This document shows, one piece after another, positions 314-40,975 of a stretch of 40,975 nucleotides of DNA. Where the stretch lies: positions 1 to 40,975 of the forward strand of contig JAGBMJ010000075.1 of assembly GCA_017634975.1 (NCBI GenBank), read 5' to 3'. The notes beneath the pieces were generated by a model, which saw nothing but the letters and a program-made list of their open reading frames with translations, ran no database searches and was not told the DNA's origin. Position numbers and translations under genes: made by a program. The stretch's first letter is position 1. The number at the start of each line of letters is the position of its first letter. This DNA is from Lachnospiraceae bacterium. GTDB taxonomy: Bacteria; Bacillota; Clostridia; Lachnospirales; Lachnospiraceae.

Positions 314-3300
314 ATGAAAATCAAACATTCAAAGGTGACGCAGAAAATCACTGCGTTACTGTCTGTAGTTCTGCTTTCAGAACAACTTGCAACCACCGGC
401 GCGGTGCTTTATGCACACGCAGAAGATGTTCTGTCGGAAGATTATTCGATCGAACATCATGTAACATCGACATGGGATGGCGGCTGCAGTGCCGAGATCA
501 TTCTGACCAATCTTTCGGAAAAAGATACGGAGGATTGGAAGATCACATTCTGTTCAACAGACAGGATTACGAATTTATGGGGTGGAACAATTACAGAATG
601 CTTGGAAGAAACTGGTTCGTATGATACGGAGGAAGATGCATCGGAAGTTGAAGAAGGGGCAGAGGAAGATGAGAATGCGATCCTTTCGGAAGAGAATATA
701 GAAGCAGAAGAAAACTTCGAAGATGCTGAAACTGAAAAAAGTGCAGATGAAACTGAAGGTGCAAAAACAGAGGACGCAGCAGACGAATCTGTAGAAATGG
801 AAGAGGAAAACGAAGAAACTGTGGTGTCCGAAGAGATGGATGAGACTGTAGAAGCGGAAGAGCGGACAGAGGAAAAATCCGAAAAAGTAACCGTAGAGGT
901 AACGGAAAATGTTTACGGTGCTCCTGCGACCGGGGAAGAATATACATATTATCGTTATACGGTTGAGGCGCTGGATTATAACAGCGTTATAGCATCCGGC
1001 AGTCAGATTATGATTGGATATAATGCCTCTGGTGATGATCATGATATCTGGGATGAAAGTGCTGAGATCGTGTTTATATCCGAGAAAACAGAAGAAGAAA
1101 TAACTGAGCCACAGAGTAACGAAAAAGGCGTGGCGAACGATCAGATTGCAGATATAACATATGTTTTTGAGGGTGAAGAGTATATAGTGAATTATACGGT
1201 ACAGTCTCACTGGGACGGACATTGCAATGTAAAGATCGAAATTGAAAATCGCTCGAAAGTAAAGATGAATAACTGGAATCTGACCTTCTTTACCGAAGAT
1301 AAGATCGACAATCCGTATAATGCTGTGCTTGTTGCTGACGGAAGCGAGGAAGGAAAGATTACCTTTAAGAATGCCGGATATAATCAGGATATCGCTGTCG
1401 GTGAAAGTGTAGAATTTGGTTTTGAAGTATTATATGGAGAGAGATTTGATCGTCCGGAGGCGTTCTATCTGGGGGATGAGACATCTATCGTTTCCGAGGA
1501 TCTCTATACCTTTACTAACACGATCACAAGTGAGTGGAATGATGGATGCACAGGTGCATTAACTATTCAGAACCTTGGAGAGAACGCAATTGAAGACTGG
1601 TGTCTGGTGATTCGTGTGGACGGAAGCATCAGTTCTACATGGGGAGGCAATCTCAAGGAGATTGGCGATGGCCTCTATGAGATCGAATGCCCGGATCATT
1701 CTCAGAATATCCTGGTAGGCGGAAGCATTACGATCGGTTATCAGGCAGTGCAGAAGCCGGAGATTACACTGTTAGAGCTTCGTGAAAGGAATTCACTGCC
1801 GACAGGTCTGGGTACTTCTGTATCCAATAATGGGTTGGTAGAACCCAAAAAAAGTATACAGCACATTTTCATTGATGCGGAAGAATTCCGTTTTGAGACA
1901 GATGGCGTGTATTTTGTAGATGATGAAGTAGAACGGATGGAAGGCCATGCAGATTATGAAAAAGATCTTAAAACGGTTAAATTGAGGATTGAGGATATTT
2001 ATGGCGAAATTATCTGGGAAGGTGAGGTAATATCGGAAGATGGTTTTAAGACTTGGTGCGTAGACTCGCTGGGTTTATTGCCTTGCGCAAATATTCTTAT
2101 TTTTTCAATGACTGATGGAGAGGATAAGAAGACAGAAGAAGCCATTATTGTTATTAATAGTGAATTGAACAATATGGAAAGAACGGTTGCAGGACTTGCA
2201 GATACGGATAATGACAGCGTCTATGACTATTTCGAAAAATATTATGACACGGATCCACAAAACGCAGATACTGATGGCGACGGATTAAATGATGATGTGG
2301 AGATATTTGCGCTATTTACAGATCCGACAAGTGCAGACTCTGATGGCAACGGGGTAGCAGATGGAGATGAAGATAGGGATGGGGATGGTTTGACTGTTGC
2401 AAGGGAGTCTGAATTTGGAATATCGGACGAGTGTGATGATTGCGATGCGGATGGACTGAAGGATGGAGATGAAGTAAACATATACGGAACAGATCCGATG
2501 GAGTACGACTCTGATCAGGATGGTTTTTCTGATGGAGAAGAAATTAGACTTGGTCTTGATCCAATCAGTAAGGATAGTAATGGTGATGGAGTTCCTGATG
2601 GAGAGGAAGTATTTTATCAGACAAGAACCTTCGAGACAGGAGTTGCAGATAATCCGCTTAAAGCTGTTTTGGTGAATATCAATTGTAAGGGTAGTGTGCT
2701 GGAACAGGTGCATATTATAGAAAATCAGAATACCATTATTAGAAAAACGCCAGGTATTATCGGAATGCCGATGGATATTGAGGCAGACTTTGAATTTGAT
2801 ACAGCTGAGATAACTTTTGTTTATGATGAGAGTATACTGGGAGATACGTCAGAAGAAAATCTTCGCATTATGTGGTATAACGAAGCAGACGATGAATATG
2901 TGCTTCTGGAAGATTCTGTATGTGATCCAGAGAATAATACGGTGACGTATACGACTACTCATTTTTCAACGTATTTTATTATTGATTGGTTTAAGTGGGA
3001 GGAGTATTCAACAACGGCAATCGATTATACTGACTATACAAGAACGGTAAAAGAAAACTATGATTTTATAGTATTTATTGATTACACGTTATCAAAGCAG
3101 GATCTTGAGAAAGAAGAAAGAATAGCTTCATCTATTATAAGTAACATGGAAAATGGGGATAGAGTACTCTTTTTCTATGTAGTAAATAATAATCTTAGAA
3201 TGTTCACAGAAAATGGAAAATATAAATGGTATACAAATAAGGAACAGGCATTGATATGTATAGATCCCAATAGAGCAGATCCATTGGCTATGTTCAGGTC

Positions 3301-4600
3301 AGGTGGAATGTCAGCAAGTAATTCATACAATGGAAGGGCCGATATGGCAATTGAAGCGCTTAATGCCGCCCAAAGTAATGGCAATAAAAAGATAGGGTAT
3401 CTTTTGTATCCGGGAGCATCATATGATAACTTATTTAAAAAGGAATCATCGTATATGATAGCACAGACAAGTAAGGCCTTATCGGATGGTTCAGTTTTAA
3501 ATGCAATTCCAATAACGGAAGAGCCAAGTGAAGAATTAGAGATTTATATTAACCGAATGGGAGGTAAACAGTATAATGGCGATGAATACGCGATTATGGA
3601 TGCAATTGAACTGGATTTAGCTCAACGTCTTGAACTTACTGATGGTTATTTCAACGATATAGATACAGATGATGATGGCTTGCTTGATGTGTGGGAAGTA
3701 AAAGGAATGCGTGCATCAAATGGGATGGTTGTATATTCAGATCCGAATTTAAGAGATACTGATTATGATGGATATAGGGATGGTGAAGAAGTGGGCGAAC
3801 AGGATCCTGAGACAGGTGATTTTAAAGTTTACAGTGATCCATGGGACTCATTTTCGACGCCACATACTGTATGGCCCGTGTATATTATAGCATGGTCATA
3901 TGGTAAACGTGATGTGAAGCAATTTGAGGACAGTTATCAAGATCAGTTTCATTTTTTGGATGGGGATCCAAAAACTACTAATGAGTGGACAGAAGATGTA
4001 TGGAAAATATTTGAGTTAACAAATTCTTTTTCTCGTGCGGCACAAACAAAGCGGAGAGAACTTTTGGCTGCAGGAGTTGATCCACGACAGATAGTTTTGC
4101 AACGTTTGGATGGTGATGGAGATGAAATAAACTCATTTCACAAAATATGGAATAATGAATGGACAAACTATTCAATGATTAAAGAATTACATGTTTTTTC
4201 ACATGCGTATGAAGGGCGTCCGGGTATGTATAATACAGATGAATCACATGTTGATAATTTGGAATTATTCTCAAAACTGAATTTTGATGAATACGGCAAG
4301 GCGTATTTTTATGGATGCCATTCTGCTCAATCAGAAAAGGATGGTACATATCCTTTGCAAGATTTTGCTAATAATCAGGGTGTGGTAACATTTGGAAGTG
4401 TGAATTATGCTAGATTTTCAAGTGATATGGATAAACGTGAACGGCTTAATCCGTTTGGTATAGAGTATTCAGTATATTTAAATAGCTATGGTGTTCCTTT
4501 AACAGAGGTGAAAAGAGATATAGGATCTATTCCGAATTCCATTTGGACGATGTCGGAGGGATCATTGTATACCCCGATGAAGGCTTTTTCGCCACAGTAG
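314..4600 (+). CDS. Giant secreted modular protein: CBM2-like modules, Ca-binding repeats, vWA-like domain, candidate cysteine-protease C-terminus
   Basis: 1428 residues; start chosen after GAGGGGAG. A signal peptide ends near residue 36 (AHA|ED). Three beta-rich modules resembling family 2 carbohydrate-binding or similar Trp-rich modules follow: about 44-255, 282-380 and 396-482, each with a W(D/N)xxC motif. The first is split by a roughly 100-residue Glu-rich insert (about 100-200). Residues 631-766 are thrombospondin-type-3-like DxDxDG calcium-binding repeats. Then come a beta domain ending in a THFSTY motif (about 780-905) and a vWA-like domain from about 916 whose metal-site motif is altered (DYTLS, not DxSxS). 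A second short calcium-repeat stretch follows. The C-terminal 200 residues contain His1297 (FSHAYEG) and Cys1335 (YGCHSA), spaced like a caspase/CHAT dyad. Role is inferred: surface or secreted adhesin/toxin. No cell-wall sorting signal is visible. The gene is more AT-rich toward its 3' end than the core genes. Confidence 0.8.
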   Translation: MKIKHSKVTQKITALLSVVLLSEQLATTGAVLYAHAEDVLSEDYSIEHHVTSTWDGGCSAEIILTNLSEKDTEDWKITFCSTDRITNLWGGTITECLEETGSYDTEEDASEVEEGAEEDENAILSEENIEAEENFEDAETEKSADETEGAKTEDAADESVEMEEENEETVVSEEMDETVEAEERTEEKSEKVTVEVTENVYGAPATGEEYTYYRYTVEALDYNSVIASGSQIMIGYNASGDDHDIWDESAEIVFISEKTEEEITEPQSNEKGVANDQIADITYVFEGEEYIVNYTVQSHWDGHCNVKIEIENRSKVKMNNWNLTFFTEDKIDNPYNAVLVADGSEEGKITFKNAGYNQDIAVGESVEFGFEVLYGERFDRPEAFYLGDETSIVSEDLYTFTNTITSEWNDGCTGALTIQNLGENAIEDWCLVIRVDGSISSTWGGNLKEIGDGLYEIECPDHSQNILVGGSITIGYQAVQKPEITLLELRERNSLPTGLGTSVSNNGLVEPKKSIQHIFIDAEEFRFETDGVYFVDDEVERMEGHADYEKDLKTVKLRIEDIYGEIIWEGEVISEDGFKTWCVDSLGLLPCANILIFSMTDGEDKKTEEAIIVINSELNNMERTVAGLADTDNDSVYDYFEKYYDTDPQNADTDGDGLNDDVEIFALFTDPTSADSDGNGVADGDEDRDGDGLTVARESEFGISDECDDCDADGLKDGDEVNIYGTDPMEYDSDQDGFSDGEEIRLGLDPISKDSNGDGVPDGEEVFYQTRTFETGVADNPLKAVLVNINCKGSVLEQVHIIENQNTIIRKTPGIIGMPMDIEADFEFDTAEITFVYDESILGDTSEENLRIMWYNEADDEYVLLEDSVCDPENNTVTYTTTHFSTYFIIDWFKWEEYSTTAIDYTDYTRTVKENYDFIVFIDYTLSKQDLEKEERIASSIISNMENGDRVLFFYVVNNNLRMFTENGKYKWYTNKEQALICIDPNRADPLAMFRSGGMSASNSYNGRADMAIEALNAAQSNGNKKIGYLLYPGASYDNLFKKESSYMIAQTSKALSDGSVLNAIPITEEPSEELEIYINRMGGKQYNGDEYAIMDAIELDLAQRLELTDGYFNDIDTDDDGLLDVWEVKGMRASNGMVVYSDPNLRDTDYDGYRDGEEVGEQDPETGDFKVYSDPWDSFSTPHTVWPVYIIAWSYGKRDVKQFEDSYQDQFHFLDGDPKTTNEWTEDVWKIFELTNSFSRAAQTKRRELLAAGVDPRQIVLQRLDGDGDEINSFHKIWNNEWTNYSMIKELHVFSHAYEGRPGMYNTDESHVDNLELFSKLNFDEYGKAYFYGCHSAQSEKDGTYPLQDFANNQGVVTFGSVNYARFSSDMDKRERLNPFGIEYSVYLNSYGVPLTEVKRDIGSIPNSIWTMSEGSLYTPMKAFSPQ

Positions 4601-4617
4601 GTTAGGAGGAATTAGGG

Positions 4618-5115
4618 TTGAGGAAACTGAATTTTGATCCACTAAAAAGATCCTGTCTTATTATACTTCTATTGGGCTGCTTTTTATTTGTCGTAGATAA
4701 AATTGTTATTATCCGAATAAAGTATGATTTGGATGGCGATAGAGGATGTACCATAGACTATAATCCCGCTGGGGATATTTCAGTAGGAAAGGGAGATGTA
4801 AATGATTGCCCGGATTATTGCTGGGGATATAAAAAGGGGCTAAATGATGGAATTCTGTTTATCGGATTTAGTATGGATGGTCTGAGGGTCTACTCTATTG
4901 ATGATATATGCTATGTTGAAGGGATTAAGAAAAAAATATACTATAACATTATATTTCCAAAGGGAATGATTCATTTTTTTTGGAATGCAAACATTCAGGT
5001 CAGCTTTGATAAGGACGATGAAGGGGGGATTCATAGTGTAATAAAATGCAAAGCAAGCGACATAATTGATCAGCAGGAAGCCGGAGATAGTATTTTTTGC
5101 GATGTATATAAATGA
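4618..5115 (+). CDS. Small membrane-anchored protein, possible partner of the upstream secreted protein
   Basis: 165 residues from a TTG start at 4618, preceded by TAGGAGGA at ideal spacing and only 17 bases after the previous stop, so the two genes are probably co-transcribed. The N-terminus has a basic stretch and one hydrophobic segment (about residues 12-32), without a lipobox. The remainder (33-165) is a Cys-containing, mostly beta-predicted domain that would face outside. I recognise no family. A short anchored protein immediately after a large secreted protein with a toxin-like tail fits an immunity or tethering role, but that is inference from position only. A strong hairpin terminator follows at once. 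Confidence 0.65.
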   Translation: MRKLNFDPLKRSCLIILLLGCFLFVVDKIVIIRIKYDLDGDRGCTIDYNPAGDISVGKGDVNDCPDYCWGYKKGLNDGILFIGFSMDGLRVYSIDDICYVEGIKKKIYYNIIFPKGMIHFFWNANIQVSFDKDDEGGIHSVIKCKASDIIDQQEAGDSIFCDVYK

Positions 5116-5118
5116 ACT

Positions 5119-5147
5119 ACAAACCACCAGCGCTGCTGGTGGTTTGT
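5119..5147 (+). terminator. Intrinsic terminator hairpin after the two-gene unit
   Basis: A perfect 13-bp stem, ACAAACCACCAGC with its complement, encloses a 3-base loop and is followed by a short T-rich stretch. It begins 4 bases after the stop codon at 5115. Confidence 0.75.
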
Positions 5148-5150
5148 TTA

Positions 5151-5226
5151 AGAAGTAGGTGACCGGTTACCGTTACAAAAGTGTTAAGAATCTTAACAAA
5201 TCCGTAAAGGTACGCGGTTACCTGCT
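5151..5226. repeat. 76-bp palindromic repeat, copy 1
   Basis: Identical over all 76 bases to 6520-6595. The outer arms (5155-5176 and 5205-5226) form an imperfect 22-base inverted repeat, and the centre holds GTTAAGAATCTTAAC, itself palindromic around one base. The nested-palindrome design is typical of REP/MITE-like elements or regulatory hairpins. It lies between the terminator and the next gene, so it would be in or near that gene's leader. Confidence 0.85.
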
Positions 5227-5273
5227 AAGTGGCGAGAATATAGGAGTTATATTTTTACAGGGGAGTAAATAAG

Positions 5274-6053
5274 ATGGGATTATTCGACTTGTTTAAAAAG
5301 AACAAAATGGAAGAAGTTATTGAAGGAAACGGTAATATCTTACTAAAACATTTTGGAGCAAAGTGTAAAATAAATACGGATCATGTTGCTTATTCAGATA
5401 ATGATACTGCCAGAATTGAAAAGAACTGTGTCATTCTGGAAAAAATGGGAATGCCTGCCTATAAGGAATTGAAACTCGTACCGGTGGACTCTGTTGTGGA
5501 AATAGAGGAAAAACAGGAATTGGTATTACATCTAATCTTTGATTTCTTTGTAGGAAGAAAAGCTTTCAACAGATTAAACGGCAGAGGGGATGCAGATGAT
5601 GCGGATGTTATGATGTTGGCATTGAAATATGCTCCGGAGCTGCAGCCGTTAGCAAGTCATCTGTCCGCAATATCCAAAGGCGAGATCGGGGAAGATAAAT
5701 TAAACGATCTGGCATTTCTGGGGGAACAGGCTGTGGTGCTGGCATGGGCATTGGGATTGGCTGAGAAACCGACGGAGAATAAACTGACGTTAGGAAGTAA
5801 TTTGGTATATATATTTGAGAAATATAACGGGATACAGGAGCTGATTGACGGAAGCAATCTCTTGCCGAAAGAGGAAATCATGGAGTATGCGGATTATATT
5901 TCCAGACTGGATTTCTATTGTATGGAGCTCACATTAGCCAAAAAAGGTATGGAATCGTTACAGAATCTGAAATTCGATTGCATTCGTGAACATAAGTCTG
6001 CAATTGACAAAGTAACCTCTTTCAGTATGGATACGTATCTAAGTGCAAAGTAG
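5274..6053 (+). CDS. Hypothetical cytoplasmic protein between the 76-bp repeats
   Basis: 259 residues, ATG at 5274 after a GGGGAG ribosome site. No signal peptide or membrane segment; the opening MGLFDLFKKNK is charged and amphipathic. The middle (about 75-200) is helix-rich with many Leu/Ala, and there are no Cys clusters, nucleotide-binding loops or catalytic motifs I recognise. It stands alone, with the 76-bp repeat upstream and non-coding DNA downstream. Proteins of this look often accompany secreted polymorphic toxins as accessory or immunity proteins, but nothing in the sequence proves that. Codon use and AT content resemble the preceding accessory genes rather than the core genes to the right. 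Confidence 0.7.
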   Translation: MGLFDLFKKNKMEEVIEGNGNILLKHFGAKCKINTDHVAYSDNDTARIEKNCVILEKMGMPAYKELKLVPVDSVVEIEEKQELVLHLIFDFFVGRKAFNRLNGRGDADDADVMMLALKYAPELQPLASHLSAISKGEIGEDKLNDLAFLGEQAVVLAWALGLAEKPTENKLTLGSNLVYIFEKYNGIQELIDGSNLLPKEEIMEYADYISRLDFYCMELTLAKKGMESLQNLKFDCIREHKSAIDKVTSFSMDTYLSAK

Positions 6054-36368: not shown

Positions 36369-37175
36369 TCAACCGGCTTTGCACAACTGCTGCAGTGCCT
36401 GTTCCTCAATGAGGATCTCGTAGTGTTCTTCCATATAGGCTTCCAGCGATCTCGCATTGAATGCCCGGTCGCAGAAATCCATCAATACCGTGCAGAGTTT
36501 TTTATAGGCGAGCGGGGTAAGGTAATCTGCATAAAGCAGCAGATAATACATACCGTCCGCCGGATTCTTATACAGGATGCTTTCGCCCATCTCATAGGAT
36601 TTTACTGCCAATGCGGCATCAATGGTGGATCCCAGATCGGAGAAACAGAAAATCCGGTTTTCCTGACGAACGTTCTGCTGTGCCTTCGGATCCTGCTTGC
36701 CGCCATTCGCGGCAGCCGGTCTGGTGGCTGTGAACATCTCTGTGAACAGATCCCGCAGGGTTTTTCCGACGGAAGGAATATTGCCGTTGTTATCTGCAGT
36801 ACTGTTAATGGAAATGGAGATACTGTTGCTGTTCTCATTCTCATCTGCAGCATCGTTATCTTCATCGGTCACGATGTTTCCGGTCAAAGCAGTTGCAAAC
36901 TGAGCCAGCTTGGACTCCAGTTCATCCGGAGCCTCTACCTTGGTGATGACAAATACGATCACACCGGACTGCATCGGTACTGCCTCGATCATCAGCGGGG
37001 ATTCATCCGGTTCAAAGCCAAATTGAAAATGAGCCTCCTGCATCACATCGCGGAAGAGGCGGTTTGCTTTCTCGCTGCCATAGGTCAGTTCGCTGAACTT
37101 GATCTTACGTTCTTCGAGGTCTTCCCTCGTCAGAATGCAGCGGATCTGGTTTTCATTCACCTGCTCAATCTTCAT
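36369..37175 (-). CDS. mecA: MecA-family adaptor protein
   Basis: 268 residues. MecA delivers substrates to the ClpC/ClpP protease and regulates stress and competence factors in Firmicutes. The N-terminal substrate-binding domain opens MKIEQVNENQIRCILTREDL and includes SELTYGSEKANRLFRDVM and PLMIEAVPM. A low-complexity Asn/Ser/Asp/Lys linker (about 105-170) separates it from the C-terminal ClpC-binding domain (about 172-268, with IFCFSDLGSTI and YYLLLYADYLTP). No ribosome site precedes the ATG, and a promoter (37184-37212) would start transcription only a few bases upstream. Confidence 0.92.
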   Translation of the reverse strand: MKIEQVNENQIRCILTREDLEERKIKFSELTYGSEKANRLFRDVMQEAHFQFGFEPDESPLMIEAVPMQSGVIVFVITKVEAPDELESKLAQFATALTGNIVTDEDNDAADENENSNSISISINSTADNNGNIPSVGKTLRDLFTEMFTATRPAAANGGKQDPKAQQNVRQENRIFCFSDLGSTIDAALAVKSYEMGESILYKNPADGMYYLLLYADYLTPLAYKKLCTVLMDFCDRAFNARSLEAYMEEHYEILIEEQALQQLCKAG

Positions 37176-37212: not shown

Positions 37213-37260
37213 TAATAAAGTTGCACAATTCTGAAAGATCTGACGCTATGTTCCGGTGGC

Positions 37261-37289
37261 TTGAACGAGCTGCCACTTTTTGTTATAAT
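37261..37289 (+). promoter_or_regulatory. Promoter of the XRE regulator
   Basis: TTGAAC (37261-37266), 17-base spacer, perfect TATAAT (37284-37289) preceded by TGT (extended -10). The start codon is about 70 bases downstream. Confidence 0.65.
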
Positions 37290-37361: not shown

Positions 37362-37706
37362 ATGTCGATTGGTGAACGAATCCATCAAATTATGCATGAT
37401 AAGGGGATCACGCAGAAAGATTTTTGCAAAAAAACCGGATTTGCGCAAAGTACGGTGAGTGAATGGAAGTATAAGAAGATCAGTCCCGGCGCGGATAAGG
37501 TTCTTGCAATTTGTGATGCGTTGGATATTACACCTTATGAATTATTGCAATCTGATAGTGTTAAAAAGGGACAAATGCTTGATTATATAGTCGTCAGCGA
37601 AAAATCAGACGGATATGAGCTGCTGATAGAATTTGCAGAATTGAATTCAAATCAGAAAGCACGTGTAATGGGATATATCGCTTCTTTGAAAGAAAAAAAA
37701 GATTGA
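37362..37706 (+). CDS. XRE-family transcriptional regulator
   Basis: 114 residues; start after AAGGGAG. The N-terminal helix-turn-helix (about 5-60) has ITQKDFCKKTGFAQSTVSEW with recognition helix QSTVSEWKYKK, the Cro/C1 pattern, and continues ADKVLAICDALDITPYELLQ. The rest (65-114) is helical and may dimerise. It is encoded 160 bases ahead of the two GHKL-like genes, and palindromic sites lie in that gap, so it probably controls them. It may be a repressor, perhaps also of its own gene. Confidence 0.9.
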   Translation: MSIGERIHQIMHDKGITQKDFCKKTGFAQSTVSEWKYKKISPGADKVLAICDALDITPYELLQSDSVKKGQMLDYIVVSEKSDGYELLIEFAELNSNQKARVMGYIASLKEKKD

Positions 37707-37730
37707 CAAGATCTTTTTATGTGATACGAT
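37703..37730 (+). promoter_or_regulatory. Promoter of the GHKL gene pair
   Basis: A perfect TTGACA (37703-37708), which overlaps the end of the regulator gene, a 16-base spacer and TACGAT (37725-37730). The first CTATATATAG site begins right after it. Confidence 0.45.
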
Positions 37731-37742
37731 AACTATATATAG
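37729..37742. promoter_or_regulatory. Operator-like site 1, ATAACTATATATAG
   Basis: A 14-base sequence containing the perfect palindrome CTATATATAG, overlapping the -10/start region of the promoter. It is repeated exactly at 37823-37836. Confidence 0.45.
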
Positions 37743-37822
37743 TAAACATAACGATATACAGTATCTTGCCGGCAATAGTGTACTATGCGGATTAGTATAT
37801 TTTCGTGTGTTTATACAACAAA

Positions 37823-37836
37823 ATAACTATATATAG
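37823..37836. promoter_or_regulatory. Operator-like site 2, ATAACTATATATAG
   Basis: Exact copy of site 1, 94 bases downstream and 30 bases before the start codon, next to the ribosome site region. ATAGTGTACTAT near 37777 is a further, looser palindrome between them. Confidence 0.45.
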
Positions 37837-37865
37837 GAGTTAAAACTAAATAAAAAAGGTGCAAT

Positions 37866-39398
37866 ATGGCTGTTAAAGAATTAAATTTGTTGATGACCTA
37901 TCCGGTTAAGTGGTCTATTTATAAAGTTATGAGGGATTATATACAGAACTTTTATGATGCGATTGGTTTTAATCGTTTTTCTGATGACTTTAAGTATTTT
38001 TATAATGAAGAGAAAAAAGAATTGGTGATGATTTCACAGGTAGATTTTGATAAGGAATGGTTACTGTATATCGGAACATCTTCGAAGAGGGGGACAGATA
38101 CCGGCTATGCCGGAAAGTTCGGTGAAGGATTTAAAATAGCATCCCTTGTCGCATATAGGGATTTTCATCTGTCGGTTACAATGGAATCAAGAACCTGGAA
38201 AATAAAGGTCACAGAAAAAGAAAAGAAGATAGATAACAAGAGTGTTTTCTGCCTGGCTTATGATATTACAAAACAACCGGCAATAGAAGGAGCACGACTT
38301 GTTCTGGATGGGGTGGATAAGGAGAATTATGAGATATTCTTGAGTGTCTTGAAGGATTTTTATTATATAGAGAATCCTCTTTTTGGTGAGTTGATTGCTG
38401 AGAACGATTCCTGCGCGGTATATGGTACAAAGAAGACGGAAAAAGGAGTATATCGCCGGGGGCGGGTATATGTAGGATATCAATACCGTGAGTCCATCTG
38501 TTTTCCGATCATTGTATGTAATCACACATATTCTGTTTCCGGGGATGACCGTGATAGAGATCATCTGAATTCACGGCAGACAGAAGAATGTGTAATGGAT
38601 GTAATCGATCAACTGGATAGTGCACAGGCTTTTGAAGTATTACAACGTCTCCGAAAGTTTTGGAACGGAAATCGCAGAGATGGTTGTAAGATTTCACCGA
38701 AGGAGATCGTGGAGCGGCTGATAGAGATTGCTTCGTCAAATGATGAGGTAAAAGATAAATTCAAAGCTATGTATGATGAGGAAGTTGTGGCTGATATAAC
38801 AAAAAATTATTGGCTATCGGATCACAAAGTGAGGATAGCGAAACTATGGTTTCGGGACTCAAAATATTACGGGAAACGGGCTGTTGTGCTTCCTGAATTT
38901 GTTGATATGGGAATCAAAGATATTCATATGATGTGCAGGGAAGCGAATGGATATGAAGTTACGGAAGAGCCGGGCAACAGAGAATGGAAATTCATATCTT
39001 TGTTGGAAAAAGTAGCTACGAAGTATTTTTCTGATATATACCAATATGATGAATTGCCCTATTGTATGATGTTTACAAAGACGGATCTGGCATTAGAAGG
39101 ATTGGCGGAAACGAGGAAATTGCGAACAAAATCCAGAAATGCATTTGGATTGACGACAAAAAGAAAAATTGATACGGTATATCTTTTAAAAGATGTTCTC
39201 TGGGGAGACAGTTTTGGTACTGCTTTATCAGTTTATCTACATGAATTACTGCACCAGTACGGAGGGGATAGTTCAATGCAGTTTCATAAAGCACTTTATA
39301 TAATGAATATGCGAATGCTTGAAAAAGCAGAGGAACTGAAAGTTTATTCGGAACGGTGGAAACGTATTCATAAAAGAGGTGGGAGAAAGCATGCATGA
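37866..39398 (+). CDS. GHKL-ATPase-like protein with C-terminal HExxH zinc-protease motif
   Basis: 510 residues, start after AAGGTG. The N-terminal half resembles the GHKL ATPase fold (Hsp90/MutL/histidine kinase): the N-box MRDYIQNFYDAIG has Asn28 and Asp31, and the glycine-rich lid motif is GKFGEGFK (Gly83-Gly88). Residues 180-400 show no family I recognise. Near the C-terminus, HELLHQYGGDSSMQFH has His459, Glu460, His463 and a possible third ligand His474, a zincin-type metalloprotease motif. No signal peptide or membrane segment. It is followed by a paralogue overlapping by 8 bases and preceded by an XRE regulator. A stress- or infection-triggered protease gated by ATP is a reasonable inference, not shown. 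Confidence 0.75.
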   Translation: MAVKELNLLMTYPVKWSIYKVMRDYIQNFYDAIGFNRFSDDFKYFYNEEKKELVMISQVDFDKEWLLYIGTSSKRGTDTGYAGKFGEGFKIASLVAYRDFHLSVTMESRTWKIKVTEKEKKIDNKSVFCLAYDITKQPAIEGARLVLDGVDKENYEIFLSVLKDFYYIENPLFGELIAENDSCAVYGTKKTEKGVYRRGRVYVGYQYRESICFPIIVCNHTYSVSGDDRDRDHLNSRQTEECVMDVIDQLDSAQAFEVLQRLRKFWNGNRRDGCKISPKEIVERLIEIASSNDEVKDKFKAMYDEEVVADITKNYWLSDHKVRIAKLWFRDSKYYGKRAVVLPEFVDMGIKDIHMMCREANGYEVTEEPGNREWKFISLLEKVATKYFSDIYQYDELPYCMMFTKTDLALEGLAETRKLRTKSRNAFGLTTKRKIDTVYLLKDVLWGDSFGTALSVYLHELLHQYGGDSSMQFHKALYIMNMRMLEKAEELKVYSERWKRIHKRGGRKHA

Positions 39399-40851
39399 TA
39401 AGGAAAAGCTGATACATCTGGGAATAGCAATGGATTATGCGGTAGAATGGGATTTTGACAGGATTCTTCGTGATCTTGTACAGAATTTTTATGATAGTAT
39501 CGGGTGGAGAGATTTTGAGAAAGATTTTCATATACATGTAGAAGAGAGAAAAGGAAATGATAATATTCTGATCATGGAAACGGAAGGACGGCCTTTTTCT
39601 TATGAATGGCTTACCAATATCGGAGGAAGTACAAAGACTGAATCTCCGGGAAAGTATATCGGAATGTATGGTGAGGGATTTAAAATCTGCGCATTATGTC
39701 TCTTCAGACAAAGAAAAAAGATCCGGATGGAATCTTCGGATTGGGAGATATCGGTTTGCCGGTATACGAAAAAAATTGACGGAAACCGAATGGCGATGCT
39801 TGGATATCGTTTGAAAAAAAGGATAGATGATGGAACCACAAGATTATGGATTTCAGGGTTAAGTCAGGAGGAAATACAACGAGTTGATGAAGCAAAACTG
39901 AATTTTTACTATCCGGAAAATCCGCTGTTGGGAAAGGTAATTGTTAATAAACAAGACTATGCGATATATGAGAGGAGTACAGTGCCTGTTCCTTGCAGGG
40001 ATGGTACGGCAATTCGTGGGATTTTGTTTTGCAATCGTCTGGCCAGAGGACGTCTTCCCCTGGAACTCGTGATTGTAGTAAACTGCGACATGAGAAAAGC
40101 AGATAAACGAAAAAGATCAAATTTTGAGGAATACGAGAGCATTCTGTTTTTGAATCGCAGAGTCAGAATGTTTGATGCAAAGACATCGTATCAGTTGTTA
40201 CTGAAGATGATAAAGTATTGGAATGATATTCCTCAAAGAATTGCGGATCCGGATACATGGTATTACGTTGTGTGTGAGTTGGTAAGGAAAGTTGCATCCG
40301 AGCAGAAATATAAACGAAGATTTATGAAGAAATACTTAAATCTGGTGTATCTTGAGCGTGTTCGATCCGATGTGGTAAAAAATAGTATGATAAAAGAATG
40401 TGAAGAATGGATTCGTTTTAATCCGCTATATCAGGGAAAACGTTTTGTGAATCCTGTATTTCGGCTGCTTGGAGCTAAATCGGTATTGGAAGATTATGCC
40501 TGCATGAAGAGTATAGAAAGAAAAGAAATGGGGATACGGGAAAAGGAACTTTGTAGAATACTCGTTGACAGTTTTGAAATGATATATCCATATAAAATTT
40601 ATGATCAGTTTCCGGAAATTGTTTTGACAAATGGGAAGTATTTGGATGGTCTGCAATATTGTGAGAGGGATTACAGAAAAAAACGGAATGGTAGAAAGTA
40701 CAAAATTCATAGGCTCGTTCTAAATACGGAACTGTTTGTGGAGAATGGATTTGAGAAGGCGTTGATGGATATGGCAGAAAAAATGTTGCTTGTATATGGC
40801 AGATTCAGGAGTTCCCGAAATAATGTGGCAATGATGTTAGCACCCTCATAG
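39391..40851 (+). CDS. GHKL-ATPase-like paralogue lacking the HExxH motif
   Basis: 486 residues from the ATG at 39391, which overlaps the previous stop by 8 bases and follows GGTGGGAG. It is homologous to its neighbour along its length: N-box LRDLVQNFYDSIG (Asn32, Asp35), lid motif MYGEGFK (Gly94-Gly96), and similar spacing of LNFYYPENPLLGKV and the middle region. The segment matching the neighbour's protease motif reads LMDMAEKMLLVYGRF, so both His and the Glu are lost. ATP binding may be kept. It probably forms a complex with, or regulates, the first protein. The middle is rich in Lys/Arg and may bind nucleic acid, though no domain is recognisable. Confidence 0.75.
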   Translation: MHDKEKLIHLGIAMDYAVEWDFDRILRDLVQNFYDSIGWRDFEKDFHIHVEERKGNDNILIMETEGRPFSYEWLTNIGGSTKTESPGKYIGMYGEGFKICALCLFRQRKKIRMESSDWEISVCRYTKKIDGNRMAMLGYRLKKRIDDGTTRLWISGLSQEEIQRVDEAKLNFYYPENPLLGKVIVNKQDYAIYERSTVPVPCRDGTAIRGILFCNRLARGRLPLELVIVVNCDMRKADKRKRSNFEEYESILFLNRRVRMFDAKTSYQLLLKMIKYWNDIPQRIADPDTWYYVVCELVRKVASEQKYKRRFMKKYLNLVYLERVRSDVVKNSMIKECEEWIRFNPLYQGKRFVNPVFRLLGAKSVLEDYACMKSIERKEMGIREKELCRILVDSFEMIYPYKIYDQFPEIVLTNGKYLDGLQYCERDYRKKRNGRKYKIHRLVLNTELFVENGFEKALMDMAEKMLLVYGRFRSSRNNVAMMLAPS

Positions 40852-40874
40852 CATGACACTTTTTTATTCTGTTT

Positions 40875-40967
40875 GATTGTCGCTGGAATGATTGATATAC
40901 TGTCAATCAGTCTGTAGAAAGGAAGATTCCGAAGGGAGTCTCTTGGCGGCGACAATCCTTCGGAATC
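40875..40967. other. Predicted pseudoknot-like structure at the window edge
   Basis: GATTGTCGC (40875-40883) pairs with GCGACAATC (40949-40957). GATTCCGAAGG (40925-40935) pairs with CCTTCGGAATC (40957-40967). The two helices cross, giving a pseudoknot or two mutually exclusive states. A small inner hairpin, GATTGA/TCAATC, lies at 40890-40908. No open frame is visible in 40852-40975, and the element may continue beyond the window. Confidence 0.45.
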
Positions 40968-40975
40968 CATGGTAA

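Follow-up and report, generated by a model that had tools for sequence, protein, structure and literature searches.

What might a bacterium do with a protein that joins an Hsp90-like domain to a metallopeptidase motif, and why would that protein be encoded beside a homologue from which the motif has been lost? The question is raised by three genes in the last 3.6 kb of contig JAGBMJ010000075.1 of a Lachnospiraceae bacterium (assembly GCA_017634975.1). The window that we analysed is this entire contig (C23; 40975 bases), from a genome of 4.36 Mb in 147 contigs that is 99% complete and 7.5% contaminated. On its forward strand lie an open reading frame (ORF) for X, an XRE-type regulator with a Cro/C1 helix-turn-helix (37362..37706; 114 amino acids, aa); gene A (37866..39398; 510 aa), whose product combines a GHKL-like domain, a helical linker and a C-terminal zincin-like domain; and gene B, which encodes a GHKL-like paralogue without the protease residues, starts at an ATG at 39391 or a GTG at 39379, ends at 40851 and is 486 or 490 aa long accordingly. 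We give even chances to the reading that A is a nucleotide-gated zinc protease, with B as its inactive partner, carried on an accessory cassette.

Two homologous proteins and one HExxH motif

The initial annotation described A and B as adjacent, overlapping and homologous, and the alignment bears this out, with 26% identity across 494 positions (E 4e-39). An N-box (QNFYD) and a glycine lid (GEGFK) had been seen in both proteins and are indeed present in both; they occupy residues 27-31 and 86-90 of A, inside the GHKL-like part (about residues 1-220; 37866..38525) that predicted structure and conservation delimit, and the conserved residues R229 and R231 come after it. The protease site, as proposed, is found only in A. 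There, alignment and conservation place HELLHQYGGD at residues 459-468 (39240..39269); HELLHQYGG is aligned with EKMLLVYGR of B (EKMLL at 40777..40791), so both histidines and the glutamate have been lost from B.

The assignment of the pair to the GHKL group is weak by sequence and strong by structure. A matched HATPase_c_3 at 0.004 and B matched the sacsin N-terminal domain at 6.7e-4, both under the model cut-offs; A had no match in NCBIfam at E up to 1, and comparison of an A/B profile with solved structures, by sequence, gave nothing useful. The predicted model of A (predicted local distance difference test score, pLDDT, 90.5) contains an Hsp90-like domain, a helical linker and a C-terminal domain in zincin order. 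Fold searches matched A to Hsp90, and to both Hsp90 and MutL the B protein of L015, a contig of Lachnospiraceae bacterium RUI197 on which B is uncut at 520 aa and is modelled with the same order of elements as A. The models thus argue strongly that the N-terminal part of A has a GHKL fold of the Hsp90/MutL type; a prediction without such a fold, which the initial annotation had named as grounds for giving up its reading, did not appear. In the zincin-like part (about residues 365-505; 38958..39380), delimited by element order in the whole-A model, a helix is followed by strands at 399-404, 412-424 and 430-441, the helix that bears HELLH (450-465) and two more helices. The position of HExxH on a helix after three strands in the predicted structure supports a zincin order; judged by this order of elements, the other structural outcome that would have told against the initial annotation, an HExxH away from any zincin-like pocket, did not appear either.

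Conservation was assessed in an alignment of 51 family members, 41 with HExxH and ten without, which excluded split rows, rows truncated at contig ends and the near-copies L015 A and L061 but retained the near-copy L015 B. N28 and D31 are kept in 50 of the 51 rows, the other being gapped, and G86, E87, G88, F89, K90, R229 and R231 are present in every row, dead ones included. Rows were called active by the pattern HE..H.[FY]G, so conservation of the histidines and glutamate among them is by construction. Asp468 (the last position of HExxHx[FY]GxD) lies outside that pattern; it is found in 41/41 rows with HExxH and in 2/10 dead rows, and its invariance only alongside HExxH suggests selection for a metal site. 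Comparison across homologues from 12 phyla confirmed that the residues beside HExxH and those of the GHKL motifs are conserved in a pattern that exceeds chance.

Distribution of the family and recurrence of the pair

A four-row profile searched against genome contigs found 62 loci, near-copies and fragments counted, in 12 named phyla: Bacillota (27), Spirochaetota and Pseudomonadota (6 each), Fibrobacterota and Thermodesulfobacteriota (5 each), Actinomycetota and Planctomycetota (3 each), Cyanobacteriota (2) and four more with one each, one locus being unassigned. The family is rare. With the window's own genome included in each count, members were found in 6/392 genomes at the level of the order (two of them, G333 and G264, as weak or fragment matches), in 4/397 at the level of the family with the B profile (one in fragments) and in 3/398 at the level of the phylum, where the two besides the window were partial and weak. 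No member was found among 34 other genomes of the genus. Plasmid and phage records held no close relatives of A by tblastn at E up to 1e-5; on viral contigs, a single-sequence scan confirmed none and a profile scan confirmed six. The best Pfam match over 51 members was no better than 0.003 and A has no NCBIfam match, which makes the A family nearly invisible to annotation. The family is real, rare and undescribed, and its bacterial members combine an Hsp90-like domain with what is probably a zinc-protease domain.

Active and dead members occur together again, and homologues that never pair, another outcome that would have counted against the initial annotation, were not what we saw. On a tree made by a quick method, with support from the Shimodaira-Hasegawa-like approximate likelihood ratio test (SH-aLRT), the B-type rows, eight in number with two near-copies among them, group together (100%), and beside this clade lies a second one (99%) made up of A and five other HExxH rows. 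In the A clade, B adjoins A in all five loci that can be judged (the window, L016, L018, L019 and L020), in either order; L022 starts inside A and is not judgeable. Off the tree, the pair recurs in L015 (a near-copy), L017 (A in pieces) and L066 (B, then the first part of A; L021, of the same isolate, starts inside A). The two genes are tightly spaced or overlap, except in L019, where about 450 bases and a small ORF on the opposite strand lie between them. L072 has fragments of both A and B; in L073 there is a B-like gene, truncated, and no A.

Dead copies also occur elsewhere on the tree, each beside a neighbour with HExxH: a divergent gene pair in L034 (3971-7548), where the dead site, HELCY, is less decayed, and a tandem active/dead pair in L054 (1520-4831), where branches are long and placement is unsure. 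Well-supported branches force three changes, with dead copies at three places; on this tree HExxH disappeared some three times next to a copy that kept it, and one of the placements is unsure. That one member of an adjacent pair has lost its active site again and again amounts to an experiment by nature, and it points towards asymmetric heterodimers.

Candidate functions of the pair

In the mechanism that we propose, A would work in the cytoplasm as a zinc metalloprotease. Its GHKL domain would dimerise in a nucleotide-dependent manner and thereby switch the zincin-like domain, and B would be a conserved partner that has kept the GHKL part and is unable to cut. Since B keeps the one and lacks the other, A-B heterodimers may combine one active site with one half that binds a substrate or a trigger. 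X would repress the A-B promoter via the AACTATATATAG sites described below, and the X-A-B cassette would cleave a specific protein upon some stress or invasion signal.

Several observations weigh against this reading. Most family members have no B next door, so the A/B pair is a derived form and not the rule, and in the window genome B is truncated. The position of the GHKL catalytic glutamate holds aspartate in 48 of the 51 aligned rows (one has glutamate, one asparagine and one a gap), and a DxGxG adenine box was not recognisable around residues 55-61 in the same rows; these features make ATP turnover doubtful, although nucleotide binding without turnover is quite possible with such non-canonical motifs. 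The C-terminal 170 residues of A had no zincin match in Pfam, and whole-A fold searches, in which the C-terminal domain was present only within the full model, were filled by Hsp90-type chains. The third zinc ligand of A is a guess, and proteolysis by the family is a prediction. Nor was recurrence beside defence genes, which the initial annotation proposed to check, evident. For 57 loci (five near-copies left out), we compared by PADLOC the 95 genes of 110-700 aa that lie closest (one on each side) with all 86 fourth and fifth genes per side; both sets hold some spurious ORFs, and the far set, being from the same contigs, is not a neutral background. The near set (first 25 of 63 families) gave HTH_VI 8 times, RmrA 7, capH 7, PDC-S01 up to 3 and SoFic in one case; in the far set (first 25 of 121 families) were Jet, AbiE, methyltransferase and Mrr-type families, mostly with one gene each, and there was no clear enrichment. 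A itself had no PADLOC match, B matched TmtA at 1.1e-4 over the GHKL part only, and among 51 members one TmtA model matched three and four other models one each. Neither A nor B matched a core protein of the known PADLOC systems over most of its length.

X was correctly recognised as an XRE regulator just upstream of A: it matches Pfam HTH_26 at 1.2e-13 and shares 41% identity, across 111 positions, with the XRE protein beside the A homologue of L010, while a search of solved structures by sequence gave nothing useful. The promoter assigned to it is less secure. TTGAAC-17-TATAAT with a TG is present at 37261-37289, but the six such sites stand against 4.0 (standard deviation 1.5) in shuffled sequence, which is weak. 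A second promoter-like sequence, TTGACA-16-TACGAT (37703-37730), lies just before the first copy of an exact repeat, AACTATATATAG (37731..37742); the second copy (37825..37836) lies 29 bases ahead of A. These two exact copies, which we regard as putative operators, are the only ones in the window and both fall in the X-A gap; at one mismatch or fewer the window has four (three in the gap, two of these overlapping) against 0.10 expected.

A regulator beside an HExxH protein recalls ImmR/ImmA, IrrE/DdrO and CapH/CapP, in which ImmA, IrrE and CapP cleave XRE-type repressors; these proteases are small, of the M78 type and, unlike A, have neither a GHKL domain nor a dead twin. By analogy, triggered A might cleave the neighbouring XRE repressor and so turn the cassette on, which we consider unlikely while ranking it first among the alternatives. 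The operator-like sites between X and A would suit such a switch, as would the excess of HTH_3 among neighbours (9/95 near genes against at most 1/86 far ones) and the X-like genes that adjoin a family gene in the window, L017 (divergent), L020 (with a small gene between), the near-copies L037 and L061, and L056; those of L026 and L027 are farther off. X also matches the capH model weakly (7.9e-6), which says little because HTH models match each other broadly. Set against these points, most loci have no XRE gene next door, the M78 domain matched neither A (E up to 1) nor any of the 51 members (E up to 0.5), and X, at just 114 aa, has no evident separate domain that could be cleaved.

Phage proteins offer a different comparison. 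Phage rIIA proteins have an N-terminal GHKL ATPase and a variable C-terminal domain (PMC7824862), a layout like that of A; the A family differs in being cellular, with a C-terminal HExxH domain, an aspartate in place of the catalytic glutamate and, in one clade, a paired dead copy. A viral fold search with A was led by uncharacterised phage proteins, followed by many RIIA at template-modelling scores of about 0.2-0.4, and the best phage family match, to the N-terminal part, was phrog_6077 (function unknown). These results are consistent with a chaperone or scaffold related to rIIA whose HExxH domain does not cut but holds metal or has a structural role; dead copies persist over long branches, and three of five phage or prophage relatives have no HExxH. 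The restriction of invariant Asp468 to proteins with HExxH argues otherwise, and we judge a non-cutting scaffold to be improbable. We also noted viral GHKL-HELAH proteins of 442 aa (L077-L079; 5977-7305) and 430 aa (L081; 6001-7293). They share with A the two-part layout, a DRxR motif and a weak SprT-like match of the C-terminal part, whereas their catalytic glutamate is present, they are shorter and other residues follow HELAH. Part of the L077 protein has matches in 108 phage records; of the 25 listed, most are labelled hypothetical and some histidine kinase-like ATPase or RIIA. A phage relative, compared by sequence with solved structures, gave nothing useful.

What zincin-type signal there is in Pfam leans towards SprT and WLM. 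Among the 51 members, SprT-like matched three (best 0.02), WLM two (0.011) and Zincin_1 one (0.059), all weakly, none of the members reached a curated zincin model at its cut-off, and SprT/WLM-type matches, again weak, occurred in two phage relatives. SprT-like and WLM families include DNA-dependent proteases, and MutL and MORC act as DNA clamps, which would fit a GHKL clamp on DNA with an SprT/Wss1-like domain that cleaves proteins bound or crosslinked to the DNA, whether they come from the host or a phage. We consider this quite improbable: the matches fall below curated cut-offs where these are shown, the acidic residue that lies five positions beyond the second histidine differs from the SprT ligand, and no DNA-binding domain was seen in A.

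The protease reading also has to be placed among known GHKL-effector proteins. VcSduA, a type I Shedu protein with an N-terminal GHKL ATPase, is accessory and occurs in about 1.2% of the genomes examined in that report; as in A, the GHKL domain is proposed to control a C-terminal effector enzyme, by a dimer or clamp model (PMC12137116). It differs in having a PD-(D/E)xK nuclease as effector, conserved GHKL motifs I-IV and reported phage protection, and the portion of that report used here mentions no dead paralogue, XRE gene or small gene (PMC12137116); the Shedu nuclease domain, DUF4263, matched neither A nor B at E up to 1. In paraMORC-HEPN proteins a GHKL ATPase likewise precedes a C-terminal effector in conflict-type neighbourhoods, with HEPN in place of the protease and a restriction-modification context (PMC3710099), and upstream of immune operons CapK/CapS employ a GHKL kinase (PMC13373217). 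The literature matches listed include no GHKL-metallopeptidase protein with the layout of A, and we therefore regard the A family as a new form of the known GHKL-effector arrangement. The broadest claim, that GHKL-gated zincins constitute a protease class whose cutting/non-cutting heterodimer evolved some three times and acts in bacterial stress or in conflict with phages, and of which phages carry a parallel branch, we put forward tentatively and hold to be doubtful. ATP-dependent proteases known so far use AAA+ motors; a GHKL-gated protease, if true, would be a different solution.

New here, besides the operator-like repeats and an empty site beside mecA in four relatives (see below), is a small gene with a GYxxG-type motif. 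At 13 of the 62 loci a small ORF with G[YFM]xxG overlaps or abuts the family gene on the same strand. The motif occurs in 13/60 adjacent small ORFs (50-160 aa) and in 53/2374 others at the same loci, a Fisher p of 2.4e-9 that is too good because the motif was noticed on these loci and L037 and L061 are near-copies; imperfect, distant or opposite-strand versions (L015, L017, L019 and L035/L041) were excluded from the count. Ten such proteins had no Pfam match at cut-off. This helical protein, absent from the window contig and present twice in L015 in divergent form, is probably an adaptor or a substrate. The alignment, the motif and the prediction of a small partner open the way to direct tests. 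A link of the small protein to the C-termini of Rpn nucleases was considered and dropped as an idea without support. In L047 (3871-5998), two genes, the first of them ATP-binding and presumably AAA-type, stand ahead of the small partner and the GHKL-HExxH gene on one strand, and the four may form one operon.

Borders of the cassette and its surroundings

Thirteen mecA regions were taken from relatives and five of them were listed gene by gene. Window DNA matches four of these relatives up to 37238 (L108, L109), 37229 (L110) and 37231 (L111), which places the left edge of the cassette, upstream of the presumed mecA (36372-37175, reverse strand), at 37238..37240. In four genomes (G032, G021, G006 and G010) a gene of 449 or 439 aa directly follows mecA; G028 has another gene there. 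Because the match stops where it does and mecA in the relatives leads straight to the 449/439-aa gene, X-A-B is an accessory insertion. The window genome has genes of the 449/439-aa type on contigs C42 and C106, next to a gene that we take to be ADP-ribosylglycohydrolase-like.

On the right, L015 is 99.7% identical to the window from 37812, its start, to 40834 and then diverges: its B reaches 520 aa, and after it come two small genes, of 120 and 116 aa, and a gene presumed to be ADP-ribosylglycohydrolase-like, 96% identical over 727 bases to that of the window genome. The small genes (3117-3479 and 3488-3838) are in tandem, are alike over 66 bases at 76% and are not on the window contig. From 40835 to 40975 the window holds 141 bases that also end contigs C117 and C111, the matches among the ends of C23, C117 and C111 being 100%, and that are absent at the corresponding place in L015; the contig stops within this element, which was found in the window's own genome only among 35 of the genus (34 others had no match). 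Since the element also ends two other contigs and B is longer in L015, B's last 35 or so residues have been cut off by it; the stop at 40851 is inside the element, from which the last codons of B derive. That the window holds mere remains of a decaying cassette, without a role today, is the least probable of the alternatives, very improbable in our view, since A is intact, with 99.6% identity to its counterpart in L015, and conservation across the family is strong, whatever is made of the cut B, the small genes missing from the contig and the split homologues of L017, L053, L060, L062 and L070, whose splits may be assembly errors.

Contigs C42 (L123) and C106 (L124) have in common an identical stretch of 3.9 kb that runs to where C106 stops, so two strains or a duplicate may be present in the assembly. 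The place of the L015 cassette is occupied on C42 by other genes.

The description of the cassette as an AT-rich island holds in part. Its guanine plus cytosine content is 0.37-0.40 against 0.47-0.56 over 7-37 kb of the window, but the first 7 kb are likewise low, at 0.36-0.44. Within that stretch, positions 314-6053, as AT-rich as the cassette, contain an ORF of 1428 aa with a signal-peptide-like start and two smaller ORFs.

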